Source of the DNA: Bacteroidota bacterium | GTDB lineage: Bacteria > Bacteroidota > Bacteroidia > Bacteroidales > Prolixibacteraceae | Direction: 5' to 3' | DNA length: 11,858 bases | Assembly: GCA_030695265.1 (NCBI GenBank) | Contig: JAUYTA010000416.1 | Span: forward strand, 1 to 11,858 | In this document: positions 7,325-11,832 of the stretch, piece after piece | How the letters are laid out: each line of letters opens with the position of its first letter | Numbering within the stretch: position 1 is the stretch's first letter | Program-made: the position numbers and the translations under genes | Notes under the pieces: model-generated | The model's input: only the letters and a program-made list of their open reading frames with translations | What the model was told of the DNA's origin: nothing | Database searches by the model: none

Positions 7325-8821
7325 ATGAAAGACAAATTTAGCAGAAGATCATTTTTGGCAACGACTGCAACTGTTGCGGCCGGAGTGACTATTCTTCCAA
7401 GCAATGTTATTGCTGGTATGGGTCACAAAGCACCCAGTGACAAATTGAATATTGCCGGTGTTGGAGTTGGTGGTATGGGTTTCGCTAACCTGAAAAACCT
7501 TGCCTCTGAAAATATCATCGGACTTTGCGATGTTGACTGGAAATATACCGGCGGAAACGGTGTGTTTGATAAATTTCCAGGTGCCAAAAAGTACAAAGAC
7601 TGGAGAGTTATGTACGACGAACTAGGCAAATCAATTGATGGTGTAGTGATTGCAACTGCCGACCACACACACGCCATTACAGCAGCTCATGCCATCACTA
7701 TGGGAAAACATGTTTATCTGCAAAAACCTTTGACCCACTCGGTTTACGAATCACGCCTGCTCACCAAACTGGCCGACAAATACAAAGTAGCCACTCAAAT
7801 GGGTAATCAGGGATCTTCTCAGGAAGGTGTTAACCTAACCTGCGAATGGCTTGCCAACGGCGAAATTGGTGAAGTAACAAAAGTTGAGGCATTTACCGAC
7901 CGTCCGATCTGGCCACAAGGCTTGAACACTCCAAAACAAGGACAATGGGTTCCTGAAACTTTGGATTGGGATTTATTTACCGGTCCGGCAAAAATGCGTC
8001 CTTACAATGAAATCTTTCACCCATGGAACTGGCGCGGCTGGTGGGATTACGGTACTGGTGCATTGGGCGACATGGCCTGCCATATTTTGCATCCCGTATT
8101 TGTTGGTCTCGAATTGGGTTATCCAACCAAAGCACAGGGTAATTCAACCTTATTGCTTCAGGATTGCGCACCAACAGCACAGTCGGTTAAATTAACCTTC
8201 CCGGCCCGTGCACCAAAACGCGCATGGAAAGGATCGAAAAAAGGAGCTCAGTTACCACAGGTTGAAGTATTCTGGTACGATGGTGGTATCAAACAAATGC
8301 TTCCTGAAGGATGGCCGGCTGGCAAAAATCCGAACGATGCGGGTGGTGGCGTAATTTTCCACGGAACAAAAGACAAACTGATTTGCGGATGCTACGGTGT
8401 TAACCCTTGGTTGTTATCAGGCCGCAAACCTGAATCTCCAAAATTCCGTCGTCGTGTTGAAACTTCACACGAAATGGATTGGGCTCGTGCAGCCAAAGAA
8501 ACTCCTGAAAGTCGCGTGCAAACTGCCTCTAATTTCAGCGAAGCCGGACCATTCAACGAAATGGTTGTAATGGGCGTTTTAGCCGTTCGTTTGCAAAACC
8601 TGAACAAAGAATTGTTGTGGGACGGACCAAACATGAAATTCACCAACATCACTGCTGACGAAAAAATCAGAATCGTTATCGAAGATGGTTTCAAAATTCA
8701 TGACGGTCACCCAACATTCAATAAAACATGGACAGATCCGGTTCCTGCAACTGAATTTGCTGCCGAACTGATCAAGCATACTTACCGCAAACCATGGAGT
8801 CTTCCTGATATGCCGGCATAG
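7325..8821 (+). CDS. Tat-exported Gfo/Idh/MocA family oxidoreductase
   Basis: This 498-residue protein has a twin-arginine signal (S6-R7-R8-S-F-L followed by a hydrophobic stretch to about residue 30), so it is exported folded, presumably with its cofactor bound. The Rossmann domain has G45-V-G-V-G-G-M-G for NAD(P) binding. The catalytic EKP motif of the family appears as Q133-K134-P135, keeping the lysine. The C-terminal domain contains WNWRGWWDYGTGALGDMACHILHP (about 237-260), where substrate-binding aspartate and histidine usually lie. Such exported Bacteroidota enzymes are thought to oxidise or reduce sugars or polyols; the exact substrate is not shown. The last 39 codons lie in a 120-base sequence repeated downstream of the next gene. 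A terminator follows at 8842-8876. A paralogue lies at 10345-11832. Confidence 0.9.
   Translation: MKDKFSRRSFLATTATVAAGVTILPSNVIAGMGHKAPSDKLNIAGVGVGGMGFANLKNLASENIIGLCDVDWKYTGGNGVFDKFPGAKKYKDWRVMYDELGKSIDGVVIATADHTHAITAAHAITMGKHVYLQKPLTHSVYESRLLTKLADKYKVATQMGNQGSSQEGVNLTCEWLANGEIGEVTKVEAFTDRPIWPQGLNTPKQGQWVPETLDWDLFTGPAKMRPYNEIFHPWNWRGWWDYGTGALGDMACHILHPVFVGLELGYPTKAQGNSTLLLQDCAPTAQSVKLTFPARAPKRAWKGSKKGAQLPQVEVFWYDGGIKQMLPEGWPAGKNPNDAGGGVIFHGTKDKLICGCYGVNPWLLSGRKPESPKFRRRVETSHEMDWARAAKETPESRVQTASNFSEAGPFNEMVVMGVLAVRLQNLNKELLWDGPNMKFTNITADEKIRIVIEDGFKIHDGHPTFNKTWTDPVPATEFAAELIKHTYRKPWSLPDMPA
8701..8820 (+). repeat. Left copy of 120-base direct repeat (live 3' end of the oxidoreductase gene)
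   Basis: Bases 8701-8820 match 10069-10188 at 117 of 120 positions. This copy starts at the third base of the His459 codon and runs to the stop codon. The differences are A/T at 8749, T/A at 8761, T/C at 8779 and, one base beyond, the stop TAG versus TAA. All are third-position synonymous changes. Homology stops sharply at the left edge, where both copies begin TGACGGTCA, itself a TGAC/GTCA palindrome. Confidence 0.97.
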
Positions 8822-8841
8822 ATGAATTAAATGAAAAGATT

Positions 8842-8876
8842 AAAGGTGGATTCGATAGGTAGAGTCCACCTTTTTT
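8842..8876 (+). terminator. Terminator after the first oxidoreductase gene
   Basis: A 9-bp stem AAAGGTGGA (8842-8850) with TCCACCTTT (8865-8873) encloses a 14-base loop and ends in a run of six T residues (8871-8876). It resembles the terminator that follows the right repeat copy at 10213-10242, but the two have diverged much more than the coding repeat. Confidence 0.8.
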
Positions 8877-8928
8877 GATTAAATTTTCCAAATAAAATGT
8901 TTTGTCATAAAACTTTACAGAATAACAA

Positions 8929-10071
8929 ATGATTGAACCTGACATGAATAATATCAATGACTTTGCTCAGATTGCTATTTTGATTGAAGAATCAAGAAAC
9001 AGAGCTTTTCAAAAAGTTAACGAGGAACTTGTTTTATTGTATTTTAGGGTTGGACATATTGTTACTGAAAAAGTGACTGCTGGTGCATGGGGAAGTGGTA
9101 CCGTTGATGAATTAGCGAAGTATATTGCTGAAAGACTTCCTGGATTAGCAGGGTTTAATCGTCGGGGGATCTACCGAATGATGCAGTTTTATGAGACCTA
9201 TGACCTATCTTCCGATTGTTTTTTACTCTGGGTTCAATCCCAAACTCCAATTGTGTCGCCATTGGCGACACAATTACTAACCCACGAAGATGATATTGGA
9301 AAAGTGTCGCCAATGGCGACACAAATTCAAGATATTTATTACCAGCATAATAAATTTGTATCGGCAGTGCTGACACAAATTTCATGGACAAACCATCTTG
9401 AAATATTCTCCGCAATAAAAAATGCAGAACAACGACTATTTTATATATTAATGTCAGTCAAAGAAAAATGGAGTAAGCTTGAATTAAGACGTCAGATTCA
9501 ATCGGCATTTTTTGAACGTACCATGATGGGCAATAATATTCACTCCTTATTACAGCCGCATTTACCAGAGAACCTTTTTAAAGATCCCTATATTTTTGAA
9601 TTTCTTGACTTGCCAGATGTTCATTCTGAAAAAGACTTAGAAAAAGCACTCATTCTTAATCTTCAAAAGTTTATTCTCGAAATTGGAAAGGGTTATACTT
9701 ATATGGGCAACCAATACCGCATACAGGTGGGTAAAAAGGATTATAATACTGATCTGCTCTTCTTCAATCGTGATTTGCAATGTCTTGTGATGTTTGAATT
9801 GAAAATTAGTGAGTTTGAACCTGAATTTTTGGGTAAACTAAATTTTTATCTCGAAGCGCTTGACCGTGATGTAAAACGTCCGCACGAAAAACCAAGCATC
9901 GGAGTTTTGCTTTGCAAAGGGAAAGATTCAGAGGTCGTTGAATATGCCATGGCACGAAATACTTCACCCGCATTGATCGCTGATTATGAAACAAAGTTAA
10001 TTCCTAAAAGTATTCTGGCAAAAAAACTTCACCAATTGGTGGAACAACTTTCAAAGGAAAACGATAAGTGA
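8929..10071 (+). CDS. DUF1016 (YhcG-type) PD-(D/E)XK nuclease, probable inserted gene
   Basis: This 380-residue protein has the two-part layout of the DUF1016 family: an N-terminal YhcG-type domain (about 10-105; LYFRVGHIV, GLAGFNRRGIYRMMQFYETY) and a C-terminal nuclease domain (about 215-365). The nuclease motif D275-x14-E290-L-K292 (TDLLFF...FELK) is intact, with the typical FLGKLNFYLEALD and KPSIGVLLCKGKDSEVVEYA segments after it. Family members are predicted DNA nucleases, sometimes linked to restriction systems; their role is unsettled. Between the domains, three in-frame palindromic repeats encode VSPLATQ, VSPMATQ and VSAVLTQ (residues 109, 126 and 144). ATG 8929 gives the longest frame; ATG 8944 is an equally good start. 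The stop codon TGA is the first three bases of the downstream copy of the oxidoreductase 3' end. The gene is visibly more A+T-rich than its neighbours and sits between two paralogues, which points to acquisition. Confidence 0.9.
   Translation: MIEPDMNNINDFAQIAILIEESRNRAFQKVNEELVLLYFRVGHIVTEKVTAGAWGSGTVDELAKYIAERLPGLAGFNRRGIYRMMQFYETYDLSSDCFLLWVQSQTPIVSPLATQLLTHEDDIGKVSPMATQIQDIYYQHNKFVSAVLTQISWTNHLEIFSAIKNAEQRLFYILMSVKEKWSKLELRRQIQSAFFERTMMGNNIHSLLQPHLPENLFKDPYIFEFLDLPDVHSEKDLEKALILNLQKFILEIGKGYTYMGNQYRIQVGKKDYNTDLLFFNRDLQCLVMFELKISEFEPEFLGKLNFYLEALDRDVKRPHEKPSIGVLLCKGKDSEVVEYAMARNTSPALIADYETKLIPKSILAKKLHQLVEQLSKENDK
9249..9382 (+). repeat. Three in-frame palindromic repeats inside the nuclease gene
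   Basis: Unit 1 (9249-9275) is a perfect palindrome with 13-base arms and one central base; its core is GTGTCGCCATTGGCGACAC (9253-9271). Unit 2 (9304-9322) has the same core with a different centre base, with 9-base arms. Unit 3 (9352-9382) has 15-base arms with 13 paired, and its core matches unit 1 at 14 of 19 bases. The cores start 51 and 54 bases apart, whole numbers of codons, so the reading frame is kept. The peptides read VSPLATQ, VSPMATQ and VSAVLTQ. Unit 3 probably overlies the native family sequence VSAVLTQ-S-W. Confidence 0.9.
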
Positions 10072-10189
10072 CGGTCACCCAACATTCAATAAAACATGGA
10101 CAGATCCGGTTCCTGCTACTGAATTTGCAGCCGAACTGATCAAGCACACTTACCGCAAACCATGGAGTCTTCCTGATATGCCGGCATAA
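10069..10189 (+). repeat. Right copy of the 120-base repeat: orphan 3' end of an oxidoreductase gene
   Basis: This stretch would encode the last 39 residues and stop codon of the first Gfo/Idh/MocA protein but has no start and no upstream part. It is not derived from the adjacent paralogue, whose C-terminus is different. It overlaps the nuclease stop codon (TGA 10069-10071). All differences from the left copy are synonymous in the oxidoreductase frame, so both copies appear to have diverged while coding. It is best read as a displaced original gene end or the remnant of a near-identical duplicate. Confidence 0.95.
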
Positions 10190-10212
10190 GTTTTCTTGAT
10201 GCATAAATATTT

Positions 10213-10242
10213 AAAGGTGAATCCGAGAGGGTTCACCTTTTT
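10213..10242 (+). terminator. Terminator after the orphan repeat copy
   Basis: A 9-bp stem AAAGGTGAA (10213-10221) with TTCACCTTT (10232-10240) extends inward through a T-G and two C-G pairs to a GAGA tetraloop, and ends in TTTTT. It can end transcription of the nuclease gene, and it is the counterpart of the hairpin after the left repeat copy. Confidence 0.8.
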
Positions 10243-10344
10243 GTTTCTTTAACGTATAGATTTATCGTTTCATTTCTGATTTTAAAACAGAATACCTATT
10301 TTCACCGGATATAGAAACGCGTAACTTTCGGAATCAAGAATACC

Positions 10345-11832
10345 ATGGGAAACAATCGTTCGAACATCAGCCGCAGGAATTTTCTGGGTAATACACTACT
10401 TGCAGCAACTGCTGTCACCATTCTGCCATCAAATGTAATTGCGGGGTTGGGCCACAAAGCTCCGAGCGATAAACTCAATATCGCCGGAATTGGCGTTGGC
10501 GGTATGGGTTTTAACAACCTGAGCAACATGGACACCGAAAACATTGTTGCTTTGTGCGACATTGATTTGAAATATGCAGGGAGAAATGCTTTCAGGAAAT
10601 GGCCGCTTGCATCAAGACACCAGGATTACCGCGAAATGTTCGACAAACGCAAAGACATTGATGCCGTGATGATTGCAACTCCCGACCATTCACACGCCTT
10701 GCCTGCATTAATGGCAATGAAAGCCGGAAAACATGTTTACCTTCAAAAACCACTGACCCATTCGGTGTTCGAATCGCGGATCATGACTGAAACCGCCTTG
10801 CGATATGGTGTTGCTACCCAAATGGGAAATCAGGGAAATTCAGGAGAAGGAATCCGGAGAATTTGCGAATGGATTTGGGCTGGAACCATTGGTGAAATTA
10901 CCTCGGTGGATGCCTGGACCAACCGGCCAATATGGCCTCAGGGACTGGAACGGCCAACCGACAAAATGCGGGTGCCAAATACACTGAACTGGGATTTGTT
11001 TATCGGGCCGGCAAAGTTTCGTCCCTATCATGAAGTTTACACACCCTGGAACTGGCGCGGCTGGTGGGATTTCGGTACTGGTGCGCTTGGCGACATGGCC
11101 TGCCATATTCTCGACCCGGTTTTTAAAGCGCTGATGCTGCAATATCCAACAGCAGTTGAAGGAAGCTCCACACAGATTAATAACGAATCAGCTCCCACAG
11201 CCGAAAAAGTTACATATTGGTTTCCACGACGAGATAATTTGCCGAAAGTGGGTATGCCTGAAGTGAAAATAACCTGGTACGATGGCGGAATGTTACCTGA
11301 ACGCCCAGCTGAATTGGCTGACGGAGAACCAATGGGGAATAGTAGTGGGGGTGTAATATTTTACGGTACCAAAGGAAAAATCATGTGTGGAAGTTCTGCT
11401 GCGAATCCAACATTACTGCCAAGTTCAGAAATGGCACATTTTAACGAACCTGGCAAAATCATCCGCCGCGTACAAAATGCCGACACCAACGGGCACGAGC
11501 AGGATTGGATACGTGCTGCCAAAGAAAACAAGGAGAATAGGGTAGAGGCGAGTTCAAACTTTAGCTATTCCGGACCGCTCAACGAAATGGTGGTAATGGG
11601 AGTGTTGGCTGTCCGACTTCAGGATTTGAAAAAACGGTTACTGTGGGACGGAAAAAATATGCAATTTACCAATATCGGTTACGCTGAAAAAATAAGGGTC
11701 ATCACTTCCAATAAATTTGAGGTTGTGAACGGCGATCCAAAATTTGACACCAAATACGACACGATTCCGGCGCTTGCTTCTGCGGAAGAATGGATCAGGC
11801 ACAATTACCGCGACGGTTGGGAACAGATATAG
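10345..11832 (+). CDS. Tat-exported Gfo/Idh/MocA family oxidoreductase, paralogue
   Basis: This 495-residue protein is a clear paralogue of the product of 7325-8821, alike from the signal peptide onward (TILPSNVIAGLGHKAPSDKLNIAG is nearly shared). It has the twin-arginine motif S9-R10-R11-N-F-L, a Rossmann GIGVGGMG fingerprint, a QKP triad in place of EKP, and the WNWRGWWDFGTGALGDMACHILDP block in the C-terminal domain. Here HILDP retains the aspartate that is histidine in the first enzyme (HILHP), a difference near the expected substrate site. Function is inferred as a periplasmic NAD(P)-dependent sugar or polyol oxidoreductase. There is no Shine-Dalgarno site, and no convincing promoter match was found in 10243-10344; a weak TAACTTTC lies at 10322-10329. 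No terminator is visible before the window ends. Confidence 0.9.
   Translation: MGNNRSNISRRNFLGNTLLAATAVTILPSNVIAGLGHKAPSDKLNIAGIGVGGMGFNNLSNMDTENIVALCDIDLKYAGRNAFRKWPLASRHQDYREMFDKRKDIDAVMIATPDHSHALPALMAMKAGKHVYLQKPLTHSVFESRIMTETALRYGVATQMGNQGNSGEGIRRICEWIWAGTIGEITSVDAWTNRPIWPQGLERPTDKMRVPNTLNWDLFIGPAKFRPYHEVYTPWNWRGWWDFGTGALGDMACHILDPVFKALMLQYPTAVEGSSTQINNESAPTAEKVTYWFPRRDNLPKVGMPEVKITWYDGGMLPERPAELADGEPMGNSSGGVIFYGTKGKIMCGSSAANPTLLPSSEMAHFNEPGKIIRRVQNADTNGHEQDWIRAAKENKENRVEASSNFSYSGPLNEMVVMGVLAVRLQDLKKRLLWDGKNMQFTNIGYAEKIRVITSNKFEVVNGDPKFDTKYDTIPALASAEEWIRHNYRDGWEQI

Follow-up and report, generated by a model that had tools for sequence, protein, structure and literature searches.

How does a lone nuclease gene come to have the 3′ end of an oxidoreductase gene on either side of it? 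The question is raised by contig JAUYTA010000416.1 of the Bacteroidota bacterium assembly GCA_030695265.1 (family Prolixibacteraceae), which was analyzed over 11,858 nucleotides, a stretch referred to here as the window. It includes the oxidoreductase gene gfo1, a gene for a DUF1016 (YhcG) nuclease of the PD-(D/E)XK family, a second copy of the gfo1 tail, and a paralog of gfo1, gfo2 (Table 1). The evidence presented below points to the insertion of a cassette accompanied by a long duplication of its target as the probable origin of this arrangement, with the nuclease as cargo and not as a needed motor.

The duplicated gfo1 end and its empty sites

A first-pass annotation of the window had claimed that the final 120 bases of gfo1 recur at 97.5% identity directly after the DUF1016 gene, that each copy is followed by its own terminator hairpin, that the repeat unit is 1368 bases long, and that the host gene stays intact and the nuclease is the only cargo. 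The analysis bore out these descriptions. The direct repeat 8701-8820/10069-10188 has a start-to-start distance of 1368 bp, and its copies differ at repeat positions 49, 61, and 79 only. When the terminators are included, the repeat grows to 8701-8875/10069-10242 (about 175 bp, 86% identity, E value 1e-55). Both hairpins fold and, from their sequences, look like strong terminators. The gfo1 reading frame is unbroken over its full length, and the TGA stop of the DUF1016 open reading frame (ORF) overlaps the first bases of the second tail copy. No ORF of at least 80 amino acids was found in the repeat unit besides the DUF1016 gene and one antisense ORF inside it. Neither a site-specific recombinase, integrase, or transposase (in this ORF list) nor a methyltransferase was found in the unit, and the DUF1016 gene stands alone. 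Profiles PF17761 and PF06250 both score far above their cut-offs in this ORF, and residues D275 and K292 of its product, invariant across 40 aligned sequences including the window protein, are putative catalytic residues. A search by sequence for solved structures of the protein returned none. The insert did not appear as a dispersed repeat in the window's genome, where its other matches were its own palindrome and a weak likeness to other DUF1016 genes.

The gfo1-gfo2 interval was compared in 23 genomes of the genus, that of the window included, 21 of which have both genes on one contig. The empty sites that the first-pass annotation had suggested looking for were found in nine of the 21 (148-177 bp between the matches); two others have a slightly longer spacer (218 and 403 bp), and ten, including the window, hold inserts of 1.2-8.5 kb. 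In the empty relatives, an unbroken sequence leads from the gfo1 tail through the terminator and spacer to gfo2; it contains the repeated segment once, at the corresponding position, and matches the right-hand copy of the window. Window positions 10069-10400 align unbroken, from base 1 to 305-326, with the empty sites of G018, G022, G001, and G017 (75-84% identity), while G011 aligns from base 32 and G004, G016, and G005 align piecewise; G003, G013, and G020 were not included as whole intervals. Because the alignment with the empty sites is unbroken, the right copy is, on sequence comparison, evidently the ancestral end at its undisturbed junction, and it follows from this match that the insertion copied the end of its target, as the first-pass annotation had supposed.

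The same final layout would result if gfo1-DUF1016 had been duplicated in tandem in a single event and the second gfo1 had then lost most of its length by deletion, and gfo1 and gfo2 are indeed adjacent paralogs. However, a full third oxidoreductase gene, the trace by which such an event was to be recognized, was found in none of the 18 relatives in which the whole gfo1-gfo2 interval was examined. Moreover, the right copy is followed without a break by the ancestral terminator, the spacer, and gfo2, which identifies it as the old end, and the same pattern recurs with other host genes. The deletion of a third gene was rejected on the first two of these grounds, and we regard it as quite improbable.

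The source genome is a metagenome-assembled genome (MAG) with 1074 contigs and 9.7% contamination, and the full-length second gfo1 tail was found in the window contig only, features that would suit an assembly chimera of two strains. Nevertheless, the junction between the DUF1016 gene and the tail, eroded to 21-24 bp, is present in two further assemblies (G014 and G012), and the same architecture surrounds DUF1016 genes in assemblies of other genomes. The chimera was rejected in view of the junction remnants and is very improbable indeed.

The gfo1-site DUF1016 gene also occurs in G014, G012 (truncated), G021, G009, and G019 (broken). In a tree of 45 DUF1016 proteins, which represent many families of the Bacteroidota and a few phyla besides, the four full-length genes at this site (G000, G014, G009, and G021) form one group (98/92). 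At the junction, 24 bp of the second tail are left in G014 and 21 bp in G012, with other genes downstream, whereas in G021 the DUF1016 gene joins into the ancestral terminator and in G019 further along, in the spacer. The simplest reading of these sequences is one old insertion, the redundant right copy of which would have eroded differently in each lineage. The G019 gene (L042) is also a mosaic that matches the window protein at 90% in its C-terminal part and at 50% in its N-terminal part.

Depending on the strain, the gfo1-gfo2 slot is empty or holds DUF1016, a YidD/TM2 cluster, or other cargo. The cluster lies directly 3′ of the gfo1 terminator, without tail duplication, in G010, G002, and G015 (L036, L037, and L038); its YidD and TM2 genes were identified by Pfam in G010 and its remaining genes by eye. 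It also occurs in G012 and G014, and a similar-looking cluster in the opposite orientation is found in G008. A search of the window's genome for one gene of this cluster found none, a negative result that covers that single genome.

Table 1. Coordinates of the features of the window
Feature	Positions	Strand	Remarks
gfo1, target gene	7325..8821	+	498 aa, glycoside 3-dehydrogenase, BT_2158 family; NF058561 868 bits (cut-off 750)
Left copy of gfo1 3′ end, part of the intact gene	8701..8820	+	117/120 identical to 10069-10188
Terminator hairpin 3′ of left copy	8842..8873	+	-19.2 kcal/mol, z -4.99; T run next
DUF1016/YhcG PD-(D/E)XK-family nuclease gene, inserted	8929..10071	+	380 aa; PF17761, PF06250; PADLOC PDC-S02
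Palindrome inside DUF1016 coding sequence	9249..9275		perfect, 27 bp
Second palindrome	9304..9322		GTGTCGCCAATGGCGACAC
Third palindrome	9358-9378		imperfect
Right copy of gfo1 3′ end	10069..10188	+	runs on into ancestral terminator, spacer, gfo2
Terminator hairpin 3′ of right copy, ancestral	10213..10240	+	-18.2 kcal/mol, z -3.6; T run next
gfo2, conserved right-hand neighbor, gfo1 paralog	10345..11832	+	glycoside 3-dehydrogenase

Straddling repeats around lone genes at different hosts

The first-pass annotation had also suggested searching DUF1016 genes elsewhere for flanking duplicates of gene ends, several independent cases with different host genes being taken as support for a mobile cassette. 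Direct repeats straddling the gene were sought in 800 bp on each side with a threshold of E<1e-6. The genes, mostly from MAGs with one genome per species, represent the genus and its family along with named relatives and are not a random sample; 60 regions were taken from among more than 60 listed places, and a search aimed at close relatives of the window gene supplied 36 loci, with repeat genomes deduplicated. From 137 distinct near-full-length DUF1016 genes, five were dropped for a short flank. Straddling repeats were present at 20 of the remaining 132 (16/132 at E<1e-10). The minus-strand control gave 0/132, the pairing of flanks from different loci 0/660, and recA genes 0/30. Other ORFs at the same loci showed straddling repeats in 3/219 cases (minus strand 2/219), and one of the three resembles a RhuM gene by eye. 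The Fisher test gave 7e-7 for DUF1016 versus other ORFs and 0.027 versus recA.

The repeats around the 20 genes have a median length of 75 bp (range 30-414), and for 13 of them the overlap with an adjacent ORF of at least 120 amino acids amounts to at least 20 bp and mostly involves the 3′ or the 5′ end of that ORF. The host genes, named from a reading of the proteins by eye, include the ends of hsdM or the starts of hsdS genes of type I restriction operons (L084, L106, L132, L143, and L159), the 3′ end of a multiheme cytochrome gene (L073), the starts of acyl-CoA ligase-like (L059), recD-like (L074), and Cu-ATPase-like (L157) genes, a four-helix-bundle gene (the whole gene in L177, its last 26 bp in L184), and the gfo1 end (L083). 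The right junction lies a median of 53 bp after the stop codon of the cargo (range -29 to 321) and overlaps it in L177, L083, L184, L159, and L143; this frequent closeness is a point that any good model must account for. At L143 (3385-3414/4472-4501 on the DUF1016 strand), the DUF1016 gene lies between hsdM-like and hsdS-like genes, and its 3′ end is an exact 30-bp copy of the end of the hsdM-like gene, so that both proteins share their last residues.

The DUF1016 gene of L059 matches the L073 region at 78% nucleotide identity, and the reported match is confined to the coding sequence. The two genes occupy unrelated sites with unrelated repeats, each a repeat of the local gene, and this pair is the clearest sign, at the level of sequence, that the gene itself would have moved. 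An empty site was also sought for L059, the flanks of which are 3-6 kb apart or on different contigs in the relatives checked.

The same test was applied to other families, each represented by its 30 best-scoring loci. Straddling repeats were found at 7/30 DUF4143 ATPase genes and 3/27 RhuM genes (two of the 30 RhuM loci had no central ORF and one was too short), and several of these repeats sit at the ends of other genes. A DUF1016 set in the same format, from which three of 51 loci without a central ORF had been dropped, gave 6/48. The pooled DUF4143 and RhuM genes did not differ from DUF1016 (Fisher p 0.67). We know of no nuclease domain in DUF4143 ATPase or RhuM genes. Unrelated lone genes thus demonstrably show the pattern at a range of host genes, and the duplication and the empty sites are likewise established.

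The cargo also varies at fixed sites. At the gfo1 end of G008, a 242-bp tail repeat (98.8%) encloses a 106-amino-acid ORF without a Pfam or NCBIfam match and a shorter ORF (by eye), and the repeat starts at a different point from that of the window. At the 3′ end of the cytochrome gene, G002 has the order tail-MNT-HepT-gene, G016 tail-HTH-DUF2442-gene, and G019 tail-DUF1016-gene. The same end in G009 (L295, 836-3921) has the order tail-MNT-tail-DUF1016 (shortened)-gene, i.e., three tails in series, which demonstrates that one site can hold more than one extra tail copy; no recombinase was seen in this stacked array.

These results bear on the homing-like role that the first-pass annotation had tentatively inferred for the DUF1016 nuclease, in which the enzyme would cut alleles free of the insert and repair would copy the gene and the tail in. 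The cargo is a PD-(D/E)XK-family gene that retains the conserved D and K, repeats flank DUF1016 genes far more often than other ORFs or recA, and the layout is like that of fungal mitochondrial endonuclease ORFs with a duplicated gene C-terminus (PMC3630166). On the other hand, DUF4143 and RhuM genes show repeats at similar rates, different cargo is found at the same sites (the gfo1 and cytochrome ends), and the gfo1-site DUF1016 genes group together, with repeated homing into this site not seen. In E. coli, where yhcG has a match in 4417/5426 genomes, four records were inspected; in each of them the gene has gltD and nanQ as its neighbors, and they showed no insertion polymorphism with repeats. 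The K-12 copy has no straddling repeat. Nuclease-driven homing is unsupported because other families and other cargo show the same repeats. It is an improbable explanation, neither needed nor indicated as a general cause, although DUF1016 may act as a helper in the move. Of the mobile nuclease cassette first envisaged, recurrent insertion with duplication of the target end at different hosts held, and the nuclease as general driver was rejected.

Palindromes inside DUF1016 genes

Perfect palindromes within the coding sequence, between the two domains, were found in 95/137 DUF1016 genes versus 18/151 other ORFs, and 107 of 127 DUF1016 palindromes fall in the 20-40% stretch of the gene. All 86 palindromes of this stretch that are centered on a single base share the codon phase of their center, which is CANTG in 67 of them. 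When only the 5-bp core is required, 108/137 genes qualify, 96 of the 108 in that codon phase. The sequence varies between genes and the arms covary: outer arm positions 6-12 were complementary in 551/756 cells, against a mean of 330 and a maximum of 358 in 200 rounds in which halves were dealt between genes. The window palindrome pattern occurs at 10 places in the 23 genomes, and each of these places coincides with a gfo1-site DUF1016 gene, which shows that, within these sequences, it is not a dispersed repeat; a 19-mer is rare anyway, so that avoidance elsewhere does not follow.

Internal palindromes are also present in E. coli yhcG (L262 7828-8955 from K-12, L383, and L385) and in 5/14 plasmid copies of DUF1016. 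A further palindrome lies just 3′ of the yhcG stop in L262 and L385, the arms of the yhcG palindrome differ symmetrically between E. coli strains, and the match of E. coli B yhcG to K-12 breaks off exactly at the end of an internal palindrome. The palindrome has the look of a symmetric site in DNA or RNA, evolving along with the gene that contains it, and is perhaps the recognition site, or target, of the DUF1016 protein itself.

Probable insertion with duplication of a gene end and its known counterparts

In the explanation that we favor, insertion with a long target duplication, a cassette composed of a promoter and the DUF1016 gene would have entered near the 3′ end of gfo1, and the event would have duplicated about 120-175 bp of the target, that is, the gene tail and the terminator. 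The gfo1 gene keeps a complete end at the left, and the redundant tail at the right is joined to the untouched terminator and gfo2. Insertions in gene tails would be harmless, and hence persist, because the long duplication leaves the target gene complete. The redundant tail may then erode by deletion, and recombination between the copies may keep them alike or swap cargo between strains. Our guess is that the route is insertion assisted by homology or by double-strand-break repair; routes that would fit the duplication include homology-assisted illegitimate recombination with incoming DNA, repair of breaks with a wide stagger, and the action of a trans-acting enzyme.

Several observations weigh against this explanation. 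Seven of the 20 repeats around DUF1016 genes overlap no adjacent ORF of at least 120 amino acids and could be dispersed repeats, and L200, which is counted among the other 13, is an ambiguous case in which the two copies lie inside two different ORFs. At the cytochrome end, G001 and G021 carry DUF1016 without an extra tail copy. MNT nucleotidyltransferase genes gave 0/28 at 1e-6 (two of 30 loci dropped), and so not every lone gene shows repeats. Fifteen further DUF1016 loci, 14 from plasmids and one from E. coli K-12, gave 0/15, and the pattern is limited so far to Bacteroidota chromosomes and MAGs. Finally, the insertion looks older than the G014 split, yet the two tail copies of the window are 117/120 identical to each other versus 114/120 to G008 and to G014. 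No relative compared in register is as close to the copies as they are to one another (out-of-register rows, about 25-35/120, are alignment offsets and were ignored). The near-identity of the copies despite an old insertion therefore requires gene conversion or later recombination or exchange.

An exchange between strains could also have made the layout, if gfo1-terminator-DUF1016 from a donor strain recombined in gfo1 on the left and was joined illegitimately at the tail on the right. The three differences between the window copies are alleles found in relatives, the T/A/C of the right copy at these positions being the set found in G004, and at the stop codon and in the bases after it the two copies resemble different relatives. 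Three differences are nevertheless a weak sign, and the first arrival of the gene at the donor site would be left unexplained. We consider strain exchange unlikely as the origin of the arrangement.

A broader and more tentative possibility is that lone accessory genes of Bacteroidota (the nuclease, the ATPase, RhuM, and toxin-antitoxin-like pairs) move by a common, hitherto unrecognized process that needs no recombinase and copies 30-400 bp of the target, and that one trans-acting or repair system may serve many families. If so, gene ends would be safe slots where cassettes pile up as stacked tail-gene-tail-gene arrays. Many lone defense-like genes have no obvious mobile element that would take them to new sites. 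Straddling target duplications, found in 11-23% of the tested members of three families versus 0/30 recA genes, provide a measurable signature by which such insertions could be counted and dated, recent ones found, and the insertion route tested in the laboratory.

As for known systems, the literature states that DUF1016 genes ride on conjugative elements (PMC4316617) and that YhcG belongs to the PD-(D/E)XK family and has no clear gene neighbors (PMC1189080). In the open-access literature searched, as far as its accessible text goes, no report was found of DUF1016 genes with target duplications or internal palindromes, nor of lone DUF4143 or RhuM genes or stacked arrays as target-duplicating insertions, no search having been aimed at DUF4143 or RhuM. 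Some integrative elements rebuild the 3′ end of their target gene after insertion and have repeats on both sides. The window is like them in its rebuilt gene end and its repeats at both sides but unlike them in that its unit has no integrase and that the start of the gfo1 repeat varies with the cargo. Minimal mobile elements, a concept that includes transfer by transformation and recombination in the flanks, are not known to have target repeats, whereas the gene tail is duplicated in the window. The likeness to this concept (Saunders and Snyder 2002, PMC2649163) is that a slot between conserved genes, here gfo1 and gfo2, holds different cassettes in different strains.

Mobile endonuclease ORFs with duplicated C-termini are described in PMC3630166 for fungal mitochondria (Allomyces atp6 and Glomus atp6, atp9, cox2, and nad3), where the inserted end is divergent and thought to be foreign and mobility is reportedly driven by the endonuclease. 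The window shares with them an endonuclease gene, a nuclease here by family only, that is enclosed by a duplicated 3′ end of a protein gene. Unlike the fungal ORFs, it has no foreign divergent end, its copies being nearly identical, and other cargo behaves alike, which argues against endonuclease-dependent mobility here.

Insertion with long target duplication reportedly involves no transposase, and restriction-modification cargo is a frequent association of it but does not strictly define it. It was described for restriction-modification genes of Helicobacter pylori (Nobusato et al. 2000, as cited in PMC1643837, PMC3031569, and PMC4978471). In contrast to the H. pylori cases, the window carries a lone DUF1016 gene as its cargo, and relatives carry DUF4143, RhuM, MNT/HepT, or HTH-DUF2442; an array of extra copies is found at one gene end, and the host belongs to the Bacteroidota. 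With a gene flanked by long, variable direct repeats of its target, the pattern of the window, as read from its sequence, matches insertion with long target duplication.

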